From: Candidatus Gastranaerophilales bacterium
GTDB lineage: Bacteria > Cyanobacteriota > Vampirovibrionia > Gastranaerophilales > Gastranaerophilaceae
Reading direction: 5' to 3'
Assembly (NCBI GenBank): GCA_944324455.1
Contig: CALUWJ010000005.1
Location: forward strand, 62,001-126,000
DNA length: 64,000 nt
In this document: piece by piece, positions 52,703 through 63,980 of the stretch
How the letters are laid out: each line of letters starts with the position of its first letter
Position numbering within the stretch: position 1 is the stretch's first letter
Position numbers and translations under genes: made by a program
The notes under the pieces: generated by a model
What the model saw: only the letters and a program-made list of their open reading frames with translations
Databases searched by the model: none
What the model was told of the DNA's origin: nothing

Positions 52703-54457
52703 TTACAAATTATACTTATAGTATTTATTGAATGTATCTGTTAATTTTTTATGATTAACGATGGCATCCCCCTCATTATTTAGAATAACATATAATTCAC
52801 CTAAATTAAACTGTTTTAATAAATTTTTTTCTGAAATATCGATAATATCTTCTAAATTATCTACCATGACTTTTAAAATATCGTAGGTTTTTATATTTAA
52901 AAAAGCATTAACTACATTTTCATCAAAGTGTTTATTTTTGCCCTCTATGATAATTTCAAGAGCGGTTTTTATATCCATTTTGTCTCTGTAGTGTCTTTTA
53001 GAAGTTATTGCATCAAATACATCGCAAACTGCTAAAATTCTTCCGCCAAGAGGAATTTCTTCACCTTTTAGACCTTTGTAATAGCCTGTTCCATCATATT
53101 TTTCATGGTGAGATGAAGCAATTTTAGCTACATCTTTAAAGTTTTTAGATATATAAACCTTGCCTAAAATGTTATGAGTAAAGCGAACGTGTTCTTTAAT
53201 GTGTTCATATTCTTCAGGAGTTAATTTACCCTCTTTTTGTAGAACCGAATCTTTTATGCCGATTTTTCCGATGTCGTGTAAAAGTCCTGCGTTTTTAATG
53301 ATTTCTTTTTCACTCTCAGATAATCCGTATTCATCACAAATTAATCCTGAGTAGGCAGTAACTCTCCTTGAATGACCTGAGGTGATTTTATCTCTTGCAT
53401 CAATTGAGGCTGAAAGGGTGTCAATAAAGCTTGAAAATAGCATTTTTTGTTCTTCGATTAATTTTTTTTGTTTGTTGAATAAATTAGCATTTTCAAGCGC
53501 AATTCCTGCAGATGAACCTATTGCAATTAATAAATCCTCGTCTTTTTGAGTAAAATCGCCCTCAAATTTATTTAAAACTTGAAACACGCCGACAATTTGA
53601 TGGGATAGATTTCTTATCGGCATACATAAAATGTTTCTTGTTTTATAGCCTGTTTTAAGGTCAATTTCTTTATTGAAATATTCGCTATCATAAGCATTTG
53701 ATATATTAACTGTTTCACCGGTCATAGCAACATGACCTGCTAAACCCTTATTTGCACTAAATCTTATTTCTTGCATTTCAAGGCCCAGTGCAACTTTGCT
53801 CCATAGTTCATTGTGTTCGGTATCCAATAAGAATACCGTACATCTATCTGCCCCTAAGGCTTGTTGAATTTGTTGAGCAATAATAGTTAAAAGACTATCA
53901 ATATTTGTTTCGATTGCTATTGTTCTTCCAACTTGTAAAAGTGCTAAAAGAGCGTCATCTTTTATTTCGCTCGGGATAAAAGAGGGAGGTGCCGGGGTTA
54001 TTGTCTTTTTTTGATATTCGTTATCAATTTTCTTTTTATAATCTAATATGGCTTCTTCAAATTTAATATTGTCTGTTTTAATATATAAACTTGCATTTAA
54101 TAGGTTTAGCGCGGGTTCAATATTTTTTTCAAGATATTCAATTAATGCAAAACAAAAAAGGTTGATTTTTTGTGCTATTGCGCTATTAGATGAGCTTGCA
54201 AGGTATTTTGCATCATTTAATAAAGTTAGGGTTTGAAAATATCTTGCACCTTGTCTATAGTTATTAACTGCAAGATATGACATTGAAATAGAAACTAAAT
54301 CAAAAGCTTTTATTGCAATTGAGCATTTATGAATTTTATTTAAATCAGCTAATTTAATGGGTTTATCTTTACAGATATGGTTAAAAAAAGAGTTCAAAAG
54401 AAACTCTTTCATTTCTTGATAATTAATTTTATCAGAAGTATTTAGCGCTTTATTCAT
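52703..54457 (-). CDS. GAF-HD-GYP domain protein, putative cyclic-di-nucleotide phosphodiesterase
   Basis: The 584-residue protein has an N-terminal helical region (about 1-160), a GAF domain (about 185-320, CTVFLLDTEHNELWSKVALG and FSANKGLAGHVAM) and a C-terminal HD-GYP domain (about 340-520). Metal ligands are visible: HSRRV, LLHDIGKIG, ASSHHEKYDGTGY, ILAVCDVFDAIT and the Lys-His of GKNKHFDENVV. The GYP signature reads GYY (Tyr460 in place of Pro), a tolerated or altered variant. Such proteins degrade c-di-GMP under ligand control. It heads the run with the TPR and comM genes. The ATG is preceded by GGGAT. Confidence 0.88.
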   Translation of the reverse strand: MNKALNTSDKINYQEMKEFLLNSFFNHICKDKPIKLADLNKIHKCSIAIKAFDLVSISMSYLAVNNYRQGARYFQTLTLLNDAKYLASSSNSAIAQKINLFCFALIEYLEKNIEPALNLLNASLYIKTDNIKFEEAILDYKKKIDNEYQKKTITPAPPSFIPSEIKDDALLALLQVGRTIAIETNIDSLLTIIAQQIQQALGADRCTVFLLDTEHNELWSKVALGLEMQEIRFSANKGLAGHVAMTGETVNISNAYDSEYFNKEIDLKTGYKTRNILCMPIRNLSHQIVGVFQVLNKFEGDFTQKDEDLLIAIGSSAGIALENANLFNKQKKLIEEQKMLFSSFIDTLSASIDARDKITSGHSRRVTAYSGLICDEYGLSESEKEIIKNAGLLHDIGKIGIKDSVLQKEGKLTPEEYEHIKEHVRFTHNILGKVYISKNFKDVAKIASSHHEKYDGTGYYKGLKGEEIPLGGRILAVCDVFDAITSKRHYRDKMDIKTALEIIIEGKNKHFDENVVNAFLNIKTYDILKVMVDNLEDIIDISEKNLLKQFNLGELYVILNNEGDAIVNHKKLTDTFNKYYKYNL

Positions 54458-54561: not shown

Positions 54562-57186
54562 ATGGAAGATAAAAAGACTTTAATTTTAGTTGATGGGCAT
54601 GCATTGGCTTTTCGTATGTTTTTTGCGCTTGAGAGAACCAACATGCAAACAACGGAGCATATTCCAACTTGGGCAGTGTATGGATTTTTTAAGGCAATAT
54701 TTGATTTATTATCAGATAAAAAATTAAATATCAATCCTAATTCTATAGCTGTTGCGTTTGATGTTTCAAAAGCAACTTTTAGATTGGAAAAATATTCTGA
54801 TTATAAAGCAAACAGGTTAACAATGCCTGATACCCTAAGAACTCAGCTGGAATTAATTAAAGAAGGACTTTGTGCTCTTGATATTCCGATTTATACAAAA
54901 GAGGGTTATGAGGGTGATGATGTAATTGGAACAATTGCTCTACAAGCTCAAAATAAAGGTCATAAAACATATATTTTAACAGGGGATAAAGATAGTTTTC
55001 AGCTTATTGATGATGAAGGTTTAACTACTGTTTTAATTCCCTCTAAAGGTGAAATAGTTAAATATAATAAACAAGAAGTCTATGAAAAAATGGAAGTTTA
55101 TCCAAGTCAAATTGTTGATTATAAGGCTTTATGCGGTGATACTTCTGATAATATTCCAGGGATTAGAGGAATAGGACCAAAATCAGCTTCAGCATTATTA
55201 AATGAATATAAAACTCTTGATGGAGTTTATGAAAATATTGAAAATATAACAAAAAAAGCTCTAAAAGAAAAACTAATTCAAGGAAAAGAAAATGCTTATT
55301 TATCTCAGTTTTTGGCAAAAATAGTAACTGATTTAGATATTGAATTTGATTTTGAGGGTGCTTGTTTAACTACTCCTAATAAAGAGGCTGTTAAAGAATT
55401 TTTGACTAAAATGCAATTTTATTCATTTGTTAAAAATATCGATAAATTATTAGCTCCTTTTAATTCAAAAAATTCTTGTGATGATAATATTGTTCAGTTT
55501 TTACCTCTTGAACAAGAACAAACTCAGCTTGGGTTATTTAGCCAAGTTGAAGAAAAAAAGATAAAAGAAATTAAAAAACTGCAAAATGATGAAGCAAAAA
55601 ATTATCTAAAAGAAAATAAACCTGATAAAATAGGGTTTTTATCGGATTTTGAAGATAGTGCTTATTGCTATATTGCTTATAAAAACGATGTTGTTTTAAA
55701 ATTGCCTGTAATTGAAATAAAAGATATTCTTGAAAATTCTGAAATTAAAAAAATAACTTATGATGTTAAAAACCTTGATTACGATATCAAAGGTGTAATT
55801 TTAGATACTCAGCTTTCTAGTTATATCAAAGATTCATCAAGAAAACATGATTTAATTACACAGATTAATGAATGTCTTAATGTAATTCCTGATGAAAAAG
55901 ATTATTATCTTCTAGCTTCTTATTTGTTTGATTTGTATGAATATTACAATGAAGTTTTAAATGAAAAAGAATTAAAGCTATTGAATGAAGTTGAGCTTCC
56001 CTTATCTTTTGTTTTAAAAGATATGGAAAAAACAGGTGTGAAGCTTGATATAGATTATCTTAAAACTATTGATGATGAAATCATAGTTAAAGTTAAAGAT
56101 TATGAGCAAAAGATATATTCTCAAGCAGGCATGGAATTTAATATTAATTCACCAAAACAGGTTGCTGAAGTTTTGTTTGATAAATTGCAAATAAAACCAA
56201 AGAAAAAAGGTAAATCAGGAAATTATTCCACAAATGCTAAAATTCTTGATGAATTAGCGCTTGAATATAAAATAGCAAGAGATATTTTAGAACATCGTCA
56301 ATTAATGAAATTAAAAACAACTTATATTGACGCCCTGCCTAAATTGGTTAAAAGTGATGGAAAAATTCACACTCATTTTAATCAAACAGTTACAACAACA
56401 GGAAGATTATCTTCATCTGATCCTAATTTGCAAAATATTCCAATTAAAACAGAATTTTCAAATAGAATTAGAGCTGCTTTTGTTCCTACGGACGATGATT
56501 ACTTGATTATGAGTGCTGATTATTCGCAAGTTGAATTAAGGTTATTGGCGCATTATTCAAAAGATGAAGGTTTGATTAAAGCATTTTGCGATGAAATGGA
56601 TGTTCATAAAATTACTGCATCTAAAATATTTAATGTTCCAATGGATGAAGTAACAAAGGAAATGAGAAGAAAGGCTAAAACTGTTAATTTTGGCATAATT
56701 TATGGGCAAACAAGATATGGTTTAGCGCAAACTCTTAATATTTCTCCTTTTGAAGCGCAAGATTTGATTAATAAATATTTTATGACTTATCCAAAAATTT
56801 CAACTTATATTAATGAAACCCTAGAATGCGCTCAAACTAACGGTTGGGTTGAAACTCTTTATGGTAGAAAAAGATATTTAGGAGCAGAATTGAATTCAAG
56901 AAATGCAAATATTAGAGAATTTGCTGCTCGTGCTGCAATAAATGCCCCCTTGCAAGGCTCAAGCGCTGATATTATAAAAATGGCAATGGTGGAATTATTT
57001 TCAAAACTAAAAGGTTTTAAATCAAAAATAATTCTACAAATCCATGACGAACTTGTTTTAGATGTTCATAAAGATGAACTTGATGAAGTTAAGAAATTAA
57101 CGCTTATTGCAATGGAACAAAATCAACCATTGGATGTACCTTTAAAGGTTGAAGTCGGAGTGGGTAAAACTTGGATGGAAAAGTAA
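54562..57186 (+). CDS. polA: DNA polymerase I
   Basis: 874 residues. The 5'-nuclease domain (1-290) shows LVDGHALAFRMFFAL, YEGDDVIGTIA and DYKALCGDTSDNIPG. The middle 3'-5' exonuclease-like region (about 345-470) lacks a clear three-Asp set (DFEDSAYCY and YDVKNLDYDIKG stand in place of the motifs), so proofreading may be lost, as in Bacillus Pol I. The polymerase domain (480-874) is intact: motif A ADYSQVELRLLAH, motif B EMRRKAKTVNFGIIYG, motif C QIHDELVLDV. It fills gaps in repair and removes RNA primers. GAGGAG precedes the ATG, and the next gene starts two bases after the stop. Confidence 0.96.
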   Translation: MEDKKTLILVDGHALAFRMFFALERTNMQTTEHIPTWAVYGFFKAIFDLLSDKKLNINPNSIAVAFDVSKATFRLEKYSDYKANRLTMPDTLRTQLELIKEGLCALDIPIYTKEGYEGDDVIGTIALQAQNKGHKTYILTGDKDSFQLIDDEGLTTVLIPSKGEIVKYNKQEVYEKMEVYPSQIVDYKALCGDTSDNIPGIRGIGPKSASALLNEYKTLDGVYENIENITKKALKEKLIQGKENAYLSQFLAKIVTDLDIEFDFEGACLTTPNKEAVKEFLTKMQFYSFVKNIDKLLAPFNSKNSCDDNIVQFLPLEQEQTQLGLFSQVEEKKIKEIKKLQNDEAKNYLKENKPDKIGFLSDFEDSAYCYIAYKNDVVLKLPVIEIKDILENSEIKKITYDVKNLDYDIKGVILDTQLSSYIKDSSRKHDLITQINECLNVIPDEKDYYLLASYLFDLYEYYNEVLNEKELKLLNEVELPLSFVLKDMEKTGVKLDIDYLKTIDDEIIVKVKDYEQKIYSQAGMEFNINSPKQVAEVLFDKLQIKPKKKGKSGNYSTNAKILDELALEYKIARDILEHRQLMKLKTTYIDALPKLVKSDGKIHTHFNQTVTTTGRLSSSDPNLQNIPIKTEFSNRIRAAFVPTDDDYLIMSADYSQVELRLLAHYSKDEGLIKAFCDEMDVHKITASKIFNVPMDEVTKEMRRKAKTVNFGIIYGQTRYGLAQTLNISPFEAQDLINKYFMTYPKISTYINETLECAQTNGWVETLYGRKRYLGAELNSRNANIREFAARAAINAPLQGSSADIIKMAMVELFSKLKGFKSKIILQIHDELVLDVHKDELDEVKKLTLIAMEQNQPLDVPLKVEVGVGKTWMEK

Positions 57187-57187
57187 G

Positions 57188-57550
57188 ATGAAAAAAATAA
57201 TATTAACTTTAGCTATACTATTTTCTTTTAATTATGTTATGGCAAATATGTTGAATGAATGTTATAAAATATATTCTAAAGACGCTGATAGCTTATTTAT
57301 GAGTGCATTAAGCGCAATAAGTTCATCTGATAAATATGAAATATCTGAAATTCAAACAAAAAATGGTTATATATTATTTTTGGCAGGTTCAAAATATTAT
57401 CTTTTAACTTTAACTAAAAGATATCAAAATCAAACGGAAATAAAAATTCTTCCTCAAAATAGTGATTTTTCTCAAGGAAGCGAAGTTGCAAAAGATTTAT
57501 TTTTGTTGATTGATAATGAAATTAAGACTCCTATGGGGCTGGTTAAATAA
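57188..57550 (+). CDS. Small exported protein of unknown function
   Basis: A 120-residue protein with a signal peptide (IILTLAILFSFNYVMA, cut at about 20) and a mature domain of about 100 residues with alternating strands (KYEISEIQTKNGYILFLAGS, YYLLTLTKRY). Family unknown. It begins at ATG 57188, one base after the polA stop codon; a longer frame from 57149 overlaps polA and lacks the signal peptide at its end, so it is rejected. Its stop overlaps the priA start (TAATG). Co-transcription with repair genes is odd for an exported protein. Confidence 0.65.
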   Translation: MKKIILTLAILFSFNYVMANMLNECYKIYSKDADSLFMSALSAISSSDKYEISEIQTKNGYILFLAGSKYYLLTLTKRYQNQTEIKILPQNSDFSQGSEVAKDLFLLIDNEIKTPMGLVK

Positions 57551-59574
57551 TGAATTTAAAATATGCTCAAGTTTTGGTTGATATTAATAAATTGGGTACA
57601 AAAACATTCAGCTATTTAATTCCTGAAAGTTTAAAAAATGAAATTAAAGTGGGTCAAGCTGTTTCAATTCCTTTCGGCAGAAGAAAAGAAGAACTAAAAG
57701 CTTATGTTGTAGGGTTTAGCGATTATTTAGAAGAAGGAATAAAAGCAAAAGAAATTAGTGAGATTTTAGATAATACTCCATTATTTTCTCTTGAATATTT
57801 AAAGCTTTTAGAGTGGGTTTCAAGCTATTATTTTTGTGATATTCAAACGGTTTTAAATACGGCATTACCTCAGAAATTTTTTGAAAAAAATGTTAAAAAA
57901 TATAGAACGCCAAAGATTAAGGATAAAATTTTTGATATAAAAAAGATAAATTCTGATTTTGAATTATCTAAAGCACAGAAAAAAGTTTATGACGAGATTA
58001 ATAAAGTTGGGGCTAAAACCTCGCTATTGTATGGAATTACAGGTTCTGGGAAAACTGAGATTTATTTTAAATTGATTGAAGATACAATCAATCAAGGTAA
58101 AAATGTGATATTTATGGCGCCTGAAATTGCGCTTGTTTCTCAATTGACTATGAGGACAATAGAGCGTTTTGGCGCTGATTGTGTTGCAATATGGCATAGT
58201 TCAATAACTGAAGCACAAAAATATGAAACTTGGAAAAAATTAAGAAACAATGAAATAAAAATTCTTTTTGGAGCAAGAAGTGCTGTTTTTGCACCAATGA
58301 AAGATTTAGGGCTTATTATAATTGATGAAGAACATGATTCAAGCTACAAACAAACTATGCCTAATCCAAGATATAATGCACGTGATGTTGCTAAAAAACT
58401 TTGTGAATTATATGGGGCAAAATTAATTTTGGGTTCTGCTACACCGTCAATTGAAAGTTATTATGAGGCAATTAATACTAATTCATTGTTTGTCTTAAAA
58501 GAAAGATATAATAATGCGCTTTTGCCTAAGGTTGTTGTTATTGATATGAGAGAAGAAAGAGCAGAAAAAAATTATACTCTTTTTTCAAGAACTTTACAAA
58601 AAAATGTTAAAGAAACAATTGAAAAAGGCGAACAGGTAATATTTTTAATCAATCGCAGGGGTTTTGCTTCTTATACTCAATGTCTTGAGTGCGGAACAGT
58701 TTTAGAATGTCCTAAATGTGCAATTCCTTTGATTTATCATAATCAAACAAATTCATATAAATGTCATTATTGTAATTATGAGGTTGTTAATCCAAAATGT
58801 CCAAAATGCGAAAGTGATGCGCTTGAGCATTTTGGCTTAGGAAGTGAAAAAGTTGAGCTTTCAGCAAGAAAAATGTTTCCGAATTATAGGATTGAAAGGC
58901 TTGATTCTGATAGCTTAACAAAGAAAAATGAGCATGTTGAAATTTTAAAAAGATTTCAAAAAGGCGAAATCGATATTTTAGTTGGTACTCAAATGATAGC
59001 TAAAGGTTTAGATAATAAAAATGTTACTTTAGTTGGTGTTATTAATGCAGATTTGAGTTTTAATTTGCCTGATTATAGGAGTTCGGAACGCGGTTTTTCA
59101 ATTTTAACCCAAGTTGCAGGACGCTCCGGCAGAGGGGAAAAAGAAGGAAAAGTTATTTTTCAAACTTATAATTCAAATAATATATTTTTAAAAAATGCGC
59201 AAGAACAAAATTACGAAGAATTTTATAAAAATGAAATTGAATTAAGGGAAATGCTTGACTATCCTCCTTATTCAAAAATGATTAGAGTTGTTTTATCATC
59301 AAAAGATGATTTTAGAGCTGAAAAATCAGCAGCAGAAATAGAATTTGCACTGAGTGATTATATTAAAAAATTATCTCTTGATGAAACTATTTTAATCCTA
59401 GGGCCTTGCCCTTGTGTGATTAACAGAATTAAAGAAGAATACAGATATAATATCATAATTAAAAATAAACTTTCTGAAAATGGACACAGGACAATTTTGA
59501 GGTTTTTAAAATCAATCAAACTGCCATCTGATATTAAAATGGTTGTAGATATTGACCCATCTGATATATTATAA
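57550..59574 (+). CDS. priA: Primosomal replication restart helicase PriA
   Basis: 674 residues. The N-terminal DNA-binding domain (QAVSIPFGRRKEELKAYVVG) is followed by SF2 helicase motifs: LYGITGSGKTEIYF (Walker A), IIDEEHDSSYKQ (DEEH box) and LILGSATPS. Zinc sites follow in CLECGTVLECPKCAIPL and CHYCNYEVVNPKCPKCES. The helicase C-terminal motif is GTQMIAKGLDNKNVT, with QVAGRSGRG. It reloads the replisome at collapsed forks after recombination, consistent with the helicase-nuclease genes downstream. It overlaps the upstream gene by one base. The next gene begins 5 bp after its stop. Confidence 0.95.
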   Translation: MNLKYAQVLVDINKLGTKTFSYLIPESLKNEIKVGQAVSIPFGRRKEELKAYVVGFSDYLEEGIKAKEISEILDNTPLFSLEYLKLLEWVSSYYFCDIQTVLNTALPQKFFEKNVKKYRTPKIKDKIFDIKKINSDFELSKAQKKVYDEINKVGAKTSLLYGITGSGKTEIYFKLIEDTINQGKNVIFMAPEIALVSQLTMRTIERFGADCVAIWHSSITEAQKYETWKKLRNNEIKILFGARSAVFAPMKDLGLIIIDEEHDSSYKQTMPNPRYNARDVAKKLCELYGAKLILGSATPSIESYYEAINTNSLFVLKERYNNALLPKVVVIDMREERAEKNYTLFSRTLQKNVKETIEKGEQVIFLINRRGFASYTQCLECGTVLECPKCAIPLIYHNQTNSYKCHYCNYEVVNPKCPKCESDALEHFGLGSEKVELSARKMFPNYRIERLDSDSLTKKNEHVEILKRFQKGEIDILVGTQMIAKGLDNKNVTLVGVINADLSFNLPDYRSSERGFSILTQVAGRSGRGEKEGKVIFQTYNSNNIFLKNAQEQNYEEFYKNEIELREMLDYPPYSKMIRVVLSSKDDFRAEKSAAEIEFALSDYIKKLSLDETILILGPCPCVINRIKEEYRYNIIIKNKLSENGHRTILRFLKSIKLPSDIKMVVDIDPSDIL

Positions 59575-59578
59575 AAAT

Positions 59579-62500
59579 ATGATTATAAATGCGCCATCTG
59601 ATAATAATAGAACTAAAATTTTAATTGATGAATATTTGAAACTCTTGAATAATAATGTAAAAGCTCAAGAGATTCTTGTTTTATTGAGAAATTCTAAAAA
59701 GAAAAAAGATTTTATTGAAAAAATCAAAAATCTTTCTCCTTTAGGTAATATTGGAAATCTTAAAATATATAGTTTTGAAGGATTAATTTATAATTATATT
59801 TTAGATAATTGGGCAATTGTTGAAAATTCAATTAAAAATGACGCAAATAGAAAAATCATTCCTAATCTTTGCGGGCTTGAAGTTAGTCAATATATTTTTA
59901 AAGAATGTATTAAAGAGGTTGATTTTATAGGGTATAATTCTAAAACAAGCTTATTACATCAGCTTTTTAGAAGAAACGCTTTAATTAATTTAAATCATTT
60001 ATCTGATGAAGAAGTGGCAAAAAGGGCAAAAATTTTACAAGAAAGCTATTCAACAGAAGCCAATTTAGCAATTAATAAATATAAATTAAAATCTATTCAA
60101 TTAAGGGCTTTTGATTATGTTAGACAGATGAATATTTTTGAATTTTTATATAAAAAATTAAAAAATGAATTTAGTTATGTTTTTGTTGATGATGCTGATG
60201 AAATAACTCCCGCTGTTTTAGCTTATTTAGAATATATTAAGCCATCTGTAAAAGATTTTTATATTGCTTATGATTCAGATGGTTCATCAAGATTAGGCTA
60301 TTTGGGTGCTATAAACATAAATTTTGAAAAATTTTTATCTCAAAAAGAAATAAAACCAAAAATTGAAGATAAGAAATATTCAAATGCAAAAGAAATTCTA
60401 AATTTAGTTAAAAATAATCAAAAAATTGATTTCAATAATATAAGTTTAAAATCATTTTTAAAAAGAAATGAAATGATAGATGAAGTTCTAAAAGATATTA
60501 AAACTCTTATTAATTCAGGAATAAAGCCTTGTGAAATTTCTTTAATTACTCCTTTATCGGATGAATTTTTAAAAACTTCATTAGAAAAATCAGGGTTTAA
60601 TTTTAATTTTTTGACTAAAAATGAAAAATTAAATCAAAATAAATTAATTTCATATATTTTAGAGCTTTTAAAAATAATAAATGATAAAAATAATGAAGAT
60701 GTTTCAGCTTATATTTTAAAAGGGATTTTTATTGAATTATTAAATTTGGATAAAAAAGAATCAGTTAAAATTATTCAGGAATATAAGTTTGAAAGAGATT
60801 TTAAAGGGTCAAATATTTTTGATTTTATCAAAAATAAAAATAATGAAGAATTTGTTAAATTAATTGAAATTTATGAAAAAATAAGGTTTGAAAAATTATC
60901 AATCCAACTTTATGAAATAGTTACAAATTTTCTTCCTTTGGATAAAGAATTATCAAAAGATTACATTAAAATTGCGCAATTATTAAAGCAAATTAATGAT
61001 TTTGAAGATGTTTTTAAAAATTCTGTTTCAAATAATGATTTAATAATACAATTGGAAAATACGATAATTTCAGAAAATCCCTTATCTGATGATGAAATTG
61101 ATGAAAATTCAATTGTTGTATCTTCTGCCCAAAAGATAATTGATTATTCATATAAAACAAAATATCAATTTTTATTGGACGTGAATAACGAAGGTTGGTT
61201 AAGACAAGACATAGGGCCTTTGTATAATGCTTGGGTTATGCAAAAAACTTGGTCAAAAGATACTTTTGAACTTGAAGATAATATTGAATTAACGCTTGAT
61301 AGAACAGCAAGAATATTATATAAGCTCTATTTGTTGGCTGATAAAATAACCTTATATCAAAGTTCTTATGATTCATTGGGGCAAGAAAATTTTTCAGGAA
61401 TAGATAAATATTATAAAACCAATTCTGAAACAAAAGAAACAATAAAAGTAAAACCTATTATTCCAAGAAAAGACCAAGAAGAAGTTTTAAATTATAAAGG
61501 CGGTTTGATGTCTGTTAGTGCCACAGCAGGTTCAGGCAAAACTACTATTATGCTTTTATTGGTAGATAAAATTTTATCAGGTGAAATTTTATCTGATATT
61601 GAGCCTAAAAATATTTTTGTTCTAACTTTCATGGAATCAGCTGCAAGAAACTTCAGGGAAAGAATTAAAGCAAAGTATCCGAATTTATCGGAATTACCTA
61701 ATATATCAACAATCCATGGGCTTGCACTTCGAATAATAAAAGAAAATAATAATTTTTCTCGTCTTGGGCTTGATTATGATTTTGAGATTATAGACGAGAT
61801 AAAAAGAAGTGCAATTTTAGCTGAAATTATCTATTCTCTTGGTATTGCTCCTGATAAAACAGAATTATATGATTCTGCAATCTCGGCTTATAAAAATGAA
61901 TTATCAATTTATGGGGAATTTGATTGTAAAAATAAGCTTTTTTTAAGTGTATTTCAAGCTTATCAGGCAAAATTAAAAGAGCAAAACTTAATAGATTATG
62001 ATGATTTATTGTTGTTGAGCTTAAAACTTTTAAAAGAAAACAAGGATGTATTAGAATATTATCAAGATATTGTTAAAATTATCATTGAAGATGAAGCCCA
62101 AGATTCAAGCTTTACTCAACAAAATTTAATTGGACTTTTAGGGGGAAAATATAAAAATATAATACGTTGCGGAGATATTAATCAAGCAATAACTTCAACT
62201 TTCACAAATTCAGATGTAGCTGGCTTTAGAGAGTTTATGAAAAACTCTAAAAATGTTGTTATGGATAGATGTCAAAGGTGTGCAACAGGTGTTTTAGATT
62301 GTGCTAATAATACAGTAAAATTTGCAAATGAAAATAAAATTGATGCATTTTCATCTTTAGTTATGAAACCGGTGGATGGGGTTAATGTTGTTGATAAATA
62401 TGCAGTTAAGACAGAAGTTTTTGAAGAAGAAAATCTTGAAAACCAATTTATTTTAAATGAGATAAAGCAGATTTTAAAAAATGATAAAAATGCAACAATA

Positions 62501-63370
62501 GGAATACTTCTAAGGAGCAATTTTGCAATAAATAAATGGGATAAATTATTAAAAGATAATTCAATTAAGACTTATAAAAATTCTGATAGTTTGATAAATA
62601 ATCCAATTTATAAAATTTGTCTTTTGATTTTGGAATTTATTTTAAATCCTTATGATATTAAAAAAACGATTGAAATAGCGAGTGAACTTTTTGAATACGG
62701 ATATTATAGATATGATGAAGTAAAATATGCTCAATCACTAAATGAAGCAATATTTTTAAAAGATGATTTTGATAGTCAATTATGGTGGGATTTGAATTAT
62801 TTTCTATTTAAAAATACAACTTCAATTTATGAATTGGTTAATGAAATTGGTTCATATTATTTTTCTAATTCAAAACAAAAGGATAATATTTCTCTTGTTG
62901 CTTCTATTGCAGCTAAAATTCAACTTACACAAAAAACTTTTGAAAATACTTTTAATCGTCTAAGAGAAATTCAATATAAAACTAATTTTTCAAATATTAA
63001 ATTCTTTTCAGTGGATGATACAATACAAAAAGCAAATGCAGTACAAATTATGACGCTTCATAAATCAAAAGGGGATGAATTTGATTGGGTATTTATTCCT
63101 GAATTAACTCAAAAAAACCTATGTTTTAATATAAATGAATATGAATTAAAAGAAAATTCAAAATTTATTCAAAAAGTTAAAAAAGAACCAAAAAATGATT
63201 TAGAGCTTAAAAAAGATATAATTGAAGAAAATTTCAGACTGATTTATGTTGGAATTACAAGGGCAAAGAAAAAATTATATTTAACAACAAGCAATAAATA
63301 TAAATATTTTGCAAAAGTAATTCCATATAAAAATTCTGAAATATTAGAGGGGTTAGCGCAATATGTCTAA
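59579..63370 (+). CDS. Fused pseudo-helicase / UvrD-type helicase (AddAB- or RecBC-like)
   Basis: 1263 residues in two superfamily-1 halves. The N-terminal half (about 1-600) keeps the outline but lost motifs: the P-loop position reads INAPSDNNRTKIL, and the Walker B position reads YVFVDDADEITP (about 200). The C-terminal half (about 625-1263) is intact: Q-motif IPRKDQEEVL, Walker A SATAGSGKTTIM (near 650), DEAQ box IIEDEAQDSS (near 835), IRCGDINQAI, TLHKSKGDEFDWVFIPEL (near 1155) and LIYVGITRAKKKLYL (near 1220). This mirrors RecC/AddB (inactive) joined to RecB/AddA (active) in one chain, without a nuclease domain. The nuclease gene follows with an 8-base overlap. It likely processes double-strand breaks. 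ATG 59579 is just after the priA stop. Confidence 0.8.
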   Translation: MIINAPSDNNRTKILIDEYLKLLNNNVKAQEILVLLRNSKKKKDFIEKIKNLSPLGNIGNLKIYSFEGLIYNYILDNWAIVENSIKNDANRKIIPNLCGLEVSQYIFKECIKEVDFIGYNSKTSLLHQLFRRNALINLNHLSDEEVAKRAKILQESYSTEANLAINKYKLKSIQLRAFDYVRQMNIFEFLYKKLKNEFSYVFVDDADEITPAVLAYLEYIKPSVKDFYIAYDSDGSSRLGYLGAININFEKFLSQKEIKPKIEDKKYSNAKEILNLVKNNQKIDFNNISLKSFLKRNEMIDEVLKDIKTLINSGIKPCEISLITPLSDEFLKTSLEKSGFNFNFLTKNEKLNQNKLISYILELLKIINDKNNEDVSAYILKGIFIELLNLDKKESVKIIQEYKFERDFKGSNIFDFIKNKNNEEFVKLIEIYEKIRFEKLSIQLYEIVTNFLPLDKELSKDYIKIAQLLKQINDFEDVFKNSVSNNDLIIQLENTIISENPLSDDEIDENSIVVSSAQKIIDYSYKTKYQFLLDVNNEGWLRQDIGPLYNAWVMQKTWSKDTFELEDNIELTLDRTARILYKLYLLADKITLYQSSYDSLGQENFSGIDKYYKTNSETKETIKVKPIIPRKDQEEVLNYKGGLMSVSATAGSGKTTIMLLLVDKILSGEILSDIEPKNIFVLTFMESAARNFRERIKAKYPNLSELPNISTIHGLALRIIKENNNFSRLGLDYDFEIIDEIKRSAILAEIIYSLGIAPDKTELYDSAISAYKNELSIYGEFDCKNKLFLSVFQAYQAKLKEQNLIDYDDLLLLSLKLLKENKDVLEYYQDIVKIIIEDEAQDSSFTQQNLIGLLGGKYKNIIRCGDINQAITSTFTNSDVAGFREFMKNSKNVVMDRCQRCATGVLDCANNTVKFANENKIDAFSSLVMKPVDGVNVVDKYAVKTEVFEEENLENQFILNEIKQILKNDKNATIGILLRSNFAINKWDKLLKDNSIKTYKNSDSLINNPIYKICLLILEFILNPYDIKKTIEIASELFEYGYYRYDEVKYAQSLNEAIFLKDDFDSQLWWDLNYFLFKNTTSIYELVNEIGSYYFSNSKQKDNISLVASIAAKIQLTQKTFENTFNRLREIQYKTNFSNIKFFSVDDTIQKANAVQIMTLHKSKGDEFDWVFIPELTQKNLCFNINEYELKENSKFIQKVKKEPKNDLELKKDIIEENFRLIYVGITRAKKKLYLTTSNKYKYFAKVIPYKNSEILEGLAQYV

Positions 63371-63980
63371 AATAATTGATACATTTAGTGCAAATTCTCT
63401 TAAAATTTTGGATAAAAATCCAAAAGAATTTATAGATAGATTTGTTTATCATTTGTCTTTATATAAAAAAGATGAAAGAGCAGATTTGGGTAAAAAATTT
63501 CATAGCTTGATATGCAGCTATATTAAAGGTTTTGATATAACAAAAATGATTATGGAATTATCTGAAAAAGAAAAGAAAATTTATCTTAATTTTATAGATA
63601 AATTAAAAGATAAAAAAGATTTTTTTATTGAAACAGAGTATCCTTTTTTAATTAAAGAAGAATTAAATAATGAAAATTATTATTTAGCAGGCAGATTTGA
63701 CGCTATTTATAAAAAAGATAGCGAATATATTATTTATGATTGGAAAACTTTAAACTTGCCTAAAAATCCAAAAGATGACTTGCAAAGCATTGTTTATATT
63801 TATGCACTATCAAAAATTTATAATACAAAAAATATAAAAATGCGCTATATTTCTCTTGAAAAGCTTGATTTTATTGATGTATTTTATGATGAGGATTTTA
63901 ATTATAAAAATAGAATTGATAAAATAATTGAAAAATATAGAAATTTTACATCTTTGCAAGATTTACAAGTTCATTTTTAG
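63363..63980 (+). CDS. PD-(D/E)XK nuclease, RecB/Cas4-type, stand-alone
   Basis: A 205-residue protein. The RecB-family nuclease pattern is clear: LGKKFHSLI with His47, an acidic strand ETEYPFLI, AGRFDAIY with Asp113, IIYDWKTL with Asp126 and Lys128, and LQSIVYIYAL with Gln141. Only one cysteine is present, so there is no Fe-S cluster of the AddB/Cas4 type. It overlaps the fused helicase gene by 8 bases and is probably translated with it. It would supply the nuclease that AddA/RecB normally carry at their C terminus. The stop falls 20 bases before the window end, so continuation of the operon cannot be judged. Confidence 0.85.
   Translation: MSKIIDTFSANSLKILDKNPKEFIDRFVYHLSLYKKDERADLGKKFHSLICSYIKGFDITKMIMELSEKEKKIYLNFIDKLKDKKDFFIETEYPFLIKEELNNENYYLAGRFDAIYKKDSEYIIYDWKTLNLPKNPKDDLQSIVYIYALSKIYNTKNIKMRYISLEKLDFIDVFYDEDFNYKNRIDKIIEKYRNFTSLQDLQVHF

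Follow-up and report, generated by a model that had tools for sequence, protein, structure and literature searches.

The window analysed here, a 64,000-nucleotide stretch of contig CALUWJ010000005.1 from a Candidatus Gastranaerophilales bacterium, carries on its forward strand a gene that joins two superfamily 1 (SF1) helicase halves in one chain, followed by a gene for a free-standing RecB-type nuclease. The fusion open reading frame (ORF) spans 59579-63370 (+) and encodes 1263 amino acids, as taken from the ORF list and its translation, and a TTG start further upstream, at 59552, is likewise open. Its N-terminal half (residues 1-631; 59579..61471, +) was recognised as a pseudo-helicase from its AlphaFold2 (AF2) fold, a phylum-wide profile and its ratio of nonsynonymous to synonymous substitutions (dN/dS), and its C-terminal half (residues 632-1263 and the stop codon; 61472..63370, +) as an active-type, UvrD-like SF1A helicase from Pfam matches and a tree. 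The nuclease ORF (63363..63980, +; 205 amino acids) begins within the end of the fusion gene, with an overlap of 8 bp (ATGTCTAA). The host genome measures 1.76 Mb, is 99% complete and belongs to Gastranaerophilales, and those relatives that bear a name, at 89-93% identity, are listed as Candidatus Gastranaerophilales.

The two helicase halves of the fusion

Both nucleotide-binding motifs of the N-terminal half are degenerate. The P-loop position reads APSDNNRT (residues 5-12; 59591..59614, +), and motif II reads DDADE (residues 204-208; 60188..60202, +), with aspartate in place of the catalytic glutamate of DExxQD and with invariant D204, D205, D207 and E208 columns; loss of the P-loop and retention of D-D-x-D-E were observed in 31/31 aligned homologues, in agreement with the degenerate P-loop and Walker B that a sequence-only reading of this locus had claimed. 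On its own, the sequence of this half gave no match in a Pfam search, and UvrD-helicase was matched by 16 of the 32 members of its family (best E=1.5e-8). The AF2 model, with a predicted local distance difference test score (pLDDT) of 83, exhibits a full SF1A helicase across residues 1-619. The highest Z score was obtained against UvrD (26.8), at a root-mean-square deviation (rmsd) of 6.5-11 because the domains sit differently, while the top query-normalised TM-scores (TMq) were those of AdnB (TMq 0.67, Z 22.9, rmsd 4.6) and AddB (TMq 0.65-0.66, Z about 21-21.6), which match the domain arrangement better than UvrD does. The model and these three structural matches agree on the SF1 helicase fold proposed earlier for this half. 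A profile search of the PDB returned no match with a narrow alignment of the N-terminal half and PcrA, UvrD and Rep at 3e-5 with a broader one; its sequence alone therefore does not single out AddB or AdnB.

The C-terminal half matches UvrD-helicase (PF00580, E=1.3e-42) and PF13361 (E=1.1e-21) and contains motifs of the intact helicase that it had been taken for. These are the P-loop ATAGSGKT (residues 648-655; 61520..61543, +) and motif II EDEAQD (residues 837-842; 62087..62104, +), both invariant in alignment A3; the motif VI region YVGITRA with its arginine finger, placed by alignment at about residues 1223-1229 (63245..63265, +); and the intact motifs GDINQAI and TLHKSKG. In a maximum-likelihood tree this half and stand-alone cyanobacterial helicases form one clade (support 100/99); the genome's other proteins in the tree, its PcrA, its Rep-like helicase and its UvrD-nuclease chain, fall outside that clade. 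A Pfam domain search of the 1263-amino-acid chain found no PDDEXK nuclease domain such as AddA carries.

Homologues of the fusion are conserved down to about 41% identity, and the dN/dS of the N-terminal half (0.07-0.09) is about the same as that of the C-terminal half. The fusion is thus under strong purifying selection and, since the two ratios are similarly low, its N-terminal half is maintained and not decaying; the same figures indicate that the combination of fusion and nuclease is more than a chance arrangement.

The nuclease and the three-gene set of Cyanobacteriota

The 205-amino-acid protein matches PF12705 (E=4.9e-10) and carries the GxxxH, GxxD, DxK and QxxxY motifs (H47, D113, D126, K128, Q141 and Y145), with G43, H47, R111, D113, D126, K128, Q141 and Y145 invariant over 13 nuclease sequences. 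Its AF2 model (pLDDT 91) matches the nuclease domain of AdnA (Z 17.0, rmsd 2.7), ACE1 (Z 14.9) and the nuclease of AddB (Z 13.6), with Z 10-17 across AdnA, AddB and RecB, and the nearest sequence profile is that of AdnB (E=2.8e-6). With all catalytic residues of the type retained, motifs and fold together identify a RecB-type PD-(D/E)XK nuclease, and the separate nuclease of 205 residues in an overlapping gene, described from the sequence alone, is borne out by the ORF, the Pfam match and the catalytic residues. Four iron-sulphur (Fe-S) cysteines of the AddB/Cas4 type occur in most relatives of the nuclease (L026, G341, G337, G028, G059 and most cyanobacteria), and the nucleases of the window's clade are without them. 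Against the Cas4 model the protein scores 26.3 bits, below the cut-off of 65. ACE1, an Argonaute-associated Cas4 and the top Foldseek match of the nuclease, was considered as the identity of the cyanobacterial nuclease and rejected, no ACE1 chain being matched by it; in G005, ACE1 is matched at 1e-92 by members of another family.

A profile of the N-terminal half gave matches in 198 of the 386 genomes of the phylum. According to the rows of this search, they comprise 167 of the 170 genomes of the window's family, 3/3 of two sister families, one further genome of the class (G341, fused, 1455 amino acids) and 27 weak matches among cyanobacterial-side genomes; the family members without the fusion (G115, G283 and G288) are also without the small nuclease. 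The weak cyanobacterial matches are stand-alone proteins of 660-730 amino acids that stop after the helicase fold, with motif II degraded and a P-loop present (GGSRSGKT, GPTRSGKT, GESCCGKT, GEHKSGKT). Most photosynthetic Cyanobacteriota encode the orthologues as separate genes, a pseudo-helicase of ~700 amino acids, a helicase of ~770 and an Fe-S-type nuclease of ~270. In profile-profile comparisons, the N-half family joins the stand-alone cyanobacterial family over nearly its full length (E=1.9e-21), and the nucleases of the fused lineage and of cyanobacteria join at E=6.6e-29.

Strong matches to a stand-alone pseudo-helicase profile, built from three cyanobacterial sequences, were observed in 122 genomes, and a stand-alone nuclease profile matched in 124. 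The two proteins occur together in 121 of the 125 genomes with a strong match to either. Of the four exceptions, G051 lacks a strong nuclease match, G207 gave no pseudo-helicase, and G177 and G332 match the pseudo-helicase more weakly. The helicase orthologue was detected in 22 of 24 tested genomes having the pseudo-helicase and nuclease, and the misses (G131, G374) are draft assemblies. As a separate observation, the pseudo-helicase of G177 is split over two adjacent frames (361 and 334 amino acids; L097:7020-9107), by a frameshift, a split gene or a sequencing error.

At E<1e-60, recC was found in 62 genomes, 57 of them in family f32, which fits marine Synechococcus and Prochlorococcus according to the literature (PMC5101192). 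Neither the pseudo-helicase nor the nuclease was found at the strong threshold in any of the 62 recC-positive genomes, and the helicase orthologue was found in 0/20 of those tested. The direction of this exclusion is what functional replacement predicts, on few independent events; a Fisher test of recC against the set (p about 1e-41) was given no weight, since it treats as independent genomes that are not.

The cyanobacterial genes for pseudo-helicase, helicase and nuclease usually lie far apart. In G050 the three follow one another with overlaps as unfused genes, and the helicase and nuclease genes are adjacent in G013 and G035 as well as in 22 Gastranaerophilales loci; the linkage in G050, G013 and G035 supplies the guilt-by-association that the dispersed genes lack and gives a likely path to fusion. 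Among the fused proteins, those of G341 and G337 retain an intact P-loop, and those of G214 and of the window's family have lost it; fusion therefore preceded the loss of the P-loop. The sequence-only reading had presented the layout as one that it did not recognise, and this holds for a fusion kept almost throughout the family, but the layout is not a one-off: a three-gene set that occurs throughout the phylum is present here in half-fused form.

Genomic context, proposed function and rival explanations

Directly upstream of the fusion lies priA (57550..59574, +; PriA domains), probably in the same operon and adjoining the fusion in the nearest clade, and polA (54562..57186, +; DNA_pol_A E=6e-153) lies upstream as well. 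Their adjacency, emphasised earlier, holds in the window but is kept only in the nearest clade, so the layout is not tied to polA and priA. Divergent from polA, at 52703-54457 (-), is a 584-amino-acid GAF and HD-GYP-like protein, read from sequence only; a flagellar cluster (FliI, FliH, FliG, FliF, FliE, FlgC and FlgB-like) lies directly downstream on the opposite strand, past the right end of the window (L044:7947-14557).

Five UvrD-type matches were observed in the genome, namely PcrA, a Rep-like helicase, a 1028-amino-acid UvrD-PDDEXK_1 protein, the fusion and a UPF1-like protein, together with two PDDEXK_1 matches, the 1028-amino-acid protein and the small nuclease, neither of which is an AddB. 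The 1028-amino-acid protein, on contig C7 (L042:5395-8478), combines a UvrD helicase with a PDDEXK_1 nuclease at its C-terminal end and has cysteines of the Fe-S type; proteins of this type are common in the Gastranaerophilaceae family, and its helicase lies outside the clade of the window's C-terminal half. Contig C7 (L042) also carries a flagellin-like gene, and contig C18 (L041/L043) encodes an SF1 helicase of 1042 amino acids that is UPF1/DNA2-like and ends in a Vsr-like stretch. A recC profile search of the genome gave no match, and the recB model reached 61.8 against 696 bits. AddB is absent as far as the PDDEXK_1 model detects, because AddB bears a PDDEXK_1 nuclease domain and both matches in the genome are accounted for; for AddB and RecC alike, absence was judged by family searches. 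As far as these searches detect, the genome is therefore without a full addAB or recBCD, whose presence would have spoken against a new arrangement.

The fusion and the nuclease are read here, with a probability of about 0.72, as a DNA double-strand-end processing enzyme for recombination, of the AddAB/AdnAB/RecBCD type but of different architecture, and both homology and the exclusion with recC point to a resection role. In such an enzyme, the C-terminal half would be the sole ATP-driven motor, translocating 3' to 5' on one strand. The N-terminal half would be a scaffold that keeps hold of the other strand and may also scan it, possibly reading a recombination signal (Chi), by analogy with AddB and RecC, in which single strands are held and scanned, and Chi is recognised, by SF1 domains that have been inactivated (PMC4824097). 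The nuclease would bind the helicase pair as a subunit and cut the unwound strands. As to origin, the set probably descends from three separate genes, for pseudo-helicase, helicase and Fe-S nuclease, that occur across Cyanobacteriota; the pseudo-helicase and helicase would have fused in the Gastranaerophilales lineage, after which the pseudo-helicase would have lost its P-loop, and the nuclease of the window's clade would have lost its Fe-S cysteines. At slightly better than even odds, the ancestral end-resection enzyme of Cyanobacteriota was an undescribed three-subunit complex from dispersed genes (a nuclease-free pseudo-helicase, a helicase and an Fe-S nuclease), replaced by RecBCD in marine Synechococcus/Prochlorococcus-like lineages, half-fused in gut-dwelling Gastranaerophilales, and the missing enzyme of model cyanobacteria.

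The fusion could instead be a repair or fork-remodelling helicase, doing PcrA/UvrD-like work beside priA and polA, with the nuclease merely a neighbouring independent gene. This would suit the operon that the fusion shares in the nearest clade with priA and polA, the one clade that retains the fusion without an adjacent nuclease, and PcrA as the best NCBIfam model for the helicase half, far below its cut-off (178 vs 911 bits). It is considered unlikely, as the genome already has a PcrA as well as a second helicase, Rep-like, and the C-terminal half forms a clade separate from these, as the helicase gene stands next to the nuclease gene in G050, G013, G035 and the 22 Gastranaerophilales loci independently, and as pseudo-helicase and nuclease co-occur even when unlinked. 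Still more doubtful is that the 1028-amino-acid protein (G000 C7) resects breaks and the fusion and nuclease are an accessory or degenerating relic: dN/dS of 0.07-0.09 in both halves indicates no decay, G028 and G059 have the fusion and small nuclease with no C7-type protein, and the genomes G346, G109, G177 and G013 give a single PDDEXK_1 match, the stand-alone nuclease, although the family commonly has C7-type proteins, which are the sole such candidate in G115, G283 and G288.

A role in anti-phage defence, as a helicase-nuclease like Gabija or UvrD-Cas4, seems very improbable. The helicase half does score against the PADLOC GajB models (best E=1.3e-47) and the nuclease weakly against Cas4 models, and UvrD-Cas4 fusions occur in defence contexts (PMC5704561), but GajB models fit UvrD-like helicases in general, and the C7 protein of the genome scores better (4e-70). 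No GajA-type gene adjoins the fusion, whose neighbours are priA, the PDDEXK nuclease and then flagellar genes, and its near-universal presence in the family (167/170) and in non-recC cyanobacteria, with housekeeping neighbours, is unlike that of patchy defence genes. Gabija itself, in which GajB stands beside a GajA OLD-family ATPase/TOPRIM gene, was rejected for want of that gene and because the GajB match is unspecific.

Several observations weigh against an end-processing role of the fusion and nuclease. As a second candidate end-processing enzyme is encoded in the same genome, the UvrD-PDDEXK_1 chain, the fusion stands as a candidate in a genome without RecC or AddB matches but not as the sole one. 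Genomes of class f4 are without the set, which is therefore not indispensable in the class. The small nuclease is absent beside the fusion in one clade (L024, L025, L027-L030, L033, L036 and L014), as judged over 3-6 kb of following sequence, and part of the family has no nuclease match at all in the profile search; BLAST had missed nucleases in several divergent loci, and the profile search recovered some genera and confirmed the absence in L024-L036-type loci. Because several genomes without a nuclease match have a UvrD-PDDEXK_1 protein instead, the fusion may use another nuclease there or act without one. In addition, G152, G204, G261, G391 and G406 also carry two adjacent PDDEXK_1 proteins of AddB/AddA size, and cyanobacterial G002 has a 902-amino-acid PDDEXK_1 protein; the exclusion therefore holds for recC, not for every AddAB-like protein, and stems mostly from one family (f32, 57 genomes) and f9.

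Significance and comparison with known systems

We know of no identified break-processing enzyme or Chi sites in model cyanobacteria. These have been reported without recB, recC or recD (PMC5101192), and S. elongatus is said to encode AddAB (PMC10269773), where PMC5101192 lists recB only. The three-gene set of photosynthetic cyanobacteria may be the break-processing enzyme supposedly lacking there, and three named gene families make the question directly testable. Decay of a helicase into a scaffold has also been proposed for AddB and RecC, and the P-loop series from intact (cyanobacteria, G341, G337) to lost (Gastranaerophilaceae, G214) would record such decay within one phylum.

The nearest published hint (PMC5704561, Hudaiberdiev et al. 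2017) is a predicted operon of some Clostridiales, compared here by its description, in which unfused uvrD and a Cas4-like gene (pfam12705) are proposed for repair; that description makes no mention of a pseudo-helicase half. The UvrD-Cas4 fusions of the same study join helicase and Cas4-like nuclease in one chain with no pseudo-helicase half, the architecture of the C7 protein. Among curated families there is none for the fusion or for the N-terminal half as a protein of its own, and no description of the fusion or of the three-gene set was found in the open-access literature, the part of the literature covered as opposed to subscription papers; a known, annotated AddAB subtype, raised earlier as a possible identity, was thus not encountered.

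With AddAB the set shares a live UvrD-like helicase, an inactivated SF1 domain (an SF1A fold with dead motifs I and II, as in AddB), a RecB-type nuclease and, in most relatives, Fe-S-type nuclease cysteines as in AddB. AddA and AddB are separate chains, each with its own nuclease domain, whereas here the helicase units are fused (or separate and nuclease-free) with one free-standing nuclease; the pseudo-helicase is followed on its chain by the live helicase and not by the C-terminal Fe-S nuclease domain of AddB, the addA cut-off was not reached (addA_Gpos, 86.5 vs 707.65 bits) and no addB match was obtained. AdnAB offers the closest folds, AdnB for the N-terminal half by TMq and AdnA for the nuclease, but AdnA and AdnB are both helicase-nuclease chains, while the nuclease of the set is a protein of its own. 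RecBCD, which seems to replace the three-part set within the phylum, is similar in that RecC is the inactivated partner of a live helicase; it differs in that RecB bears the nuclease, RecC keeps a dead nuclease-like domain and RecD is a second motor. The parts are known ones of AddAB type, and the layout of a fused dead and live helicase with a free nuclease is undescribed; on this comparison the pair would be AddAB-class in its proposed function and falls outside AddAB, AdnAB and RecBCD by chain architecture. To our knowledge, all described RecBCD, AddAB and AdnAB enzymes tether a nuclease domain to a helicase chain; if the end-processing reading is true, such tethering would be dispensable, and motor, scanner and cutter would be genetically separable.

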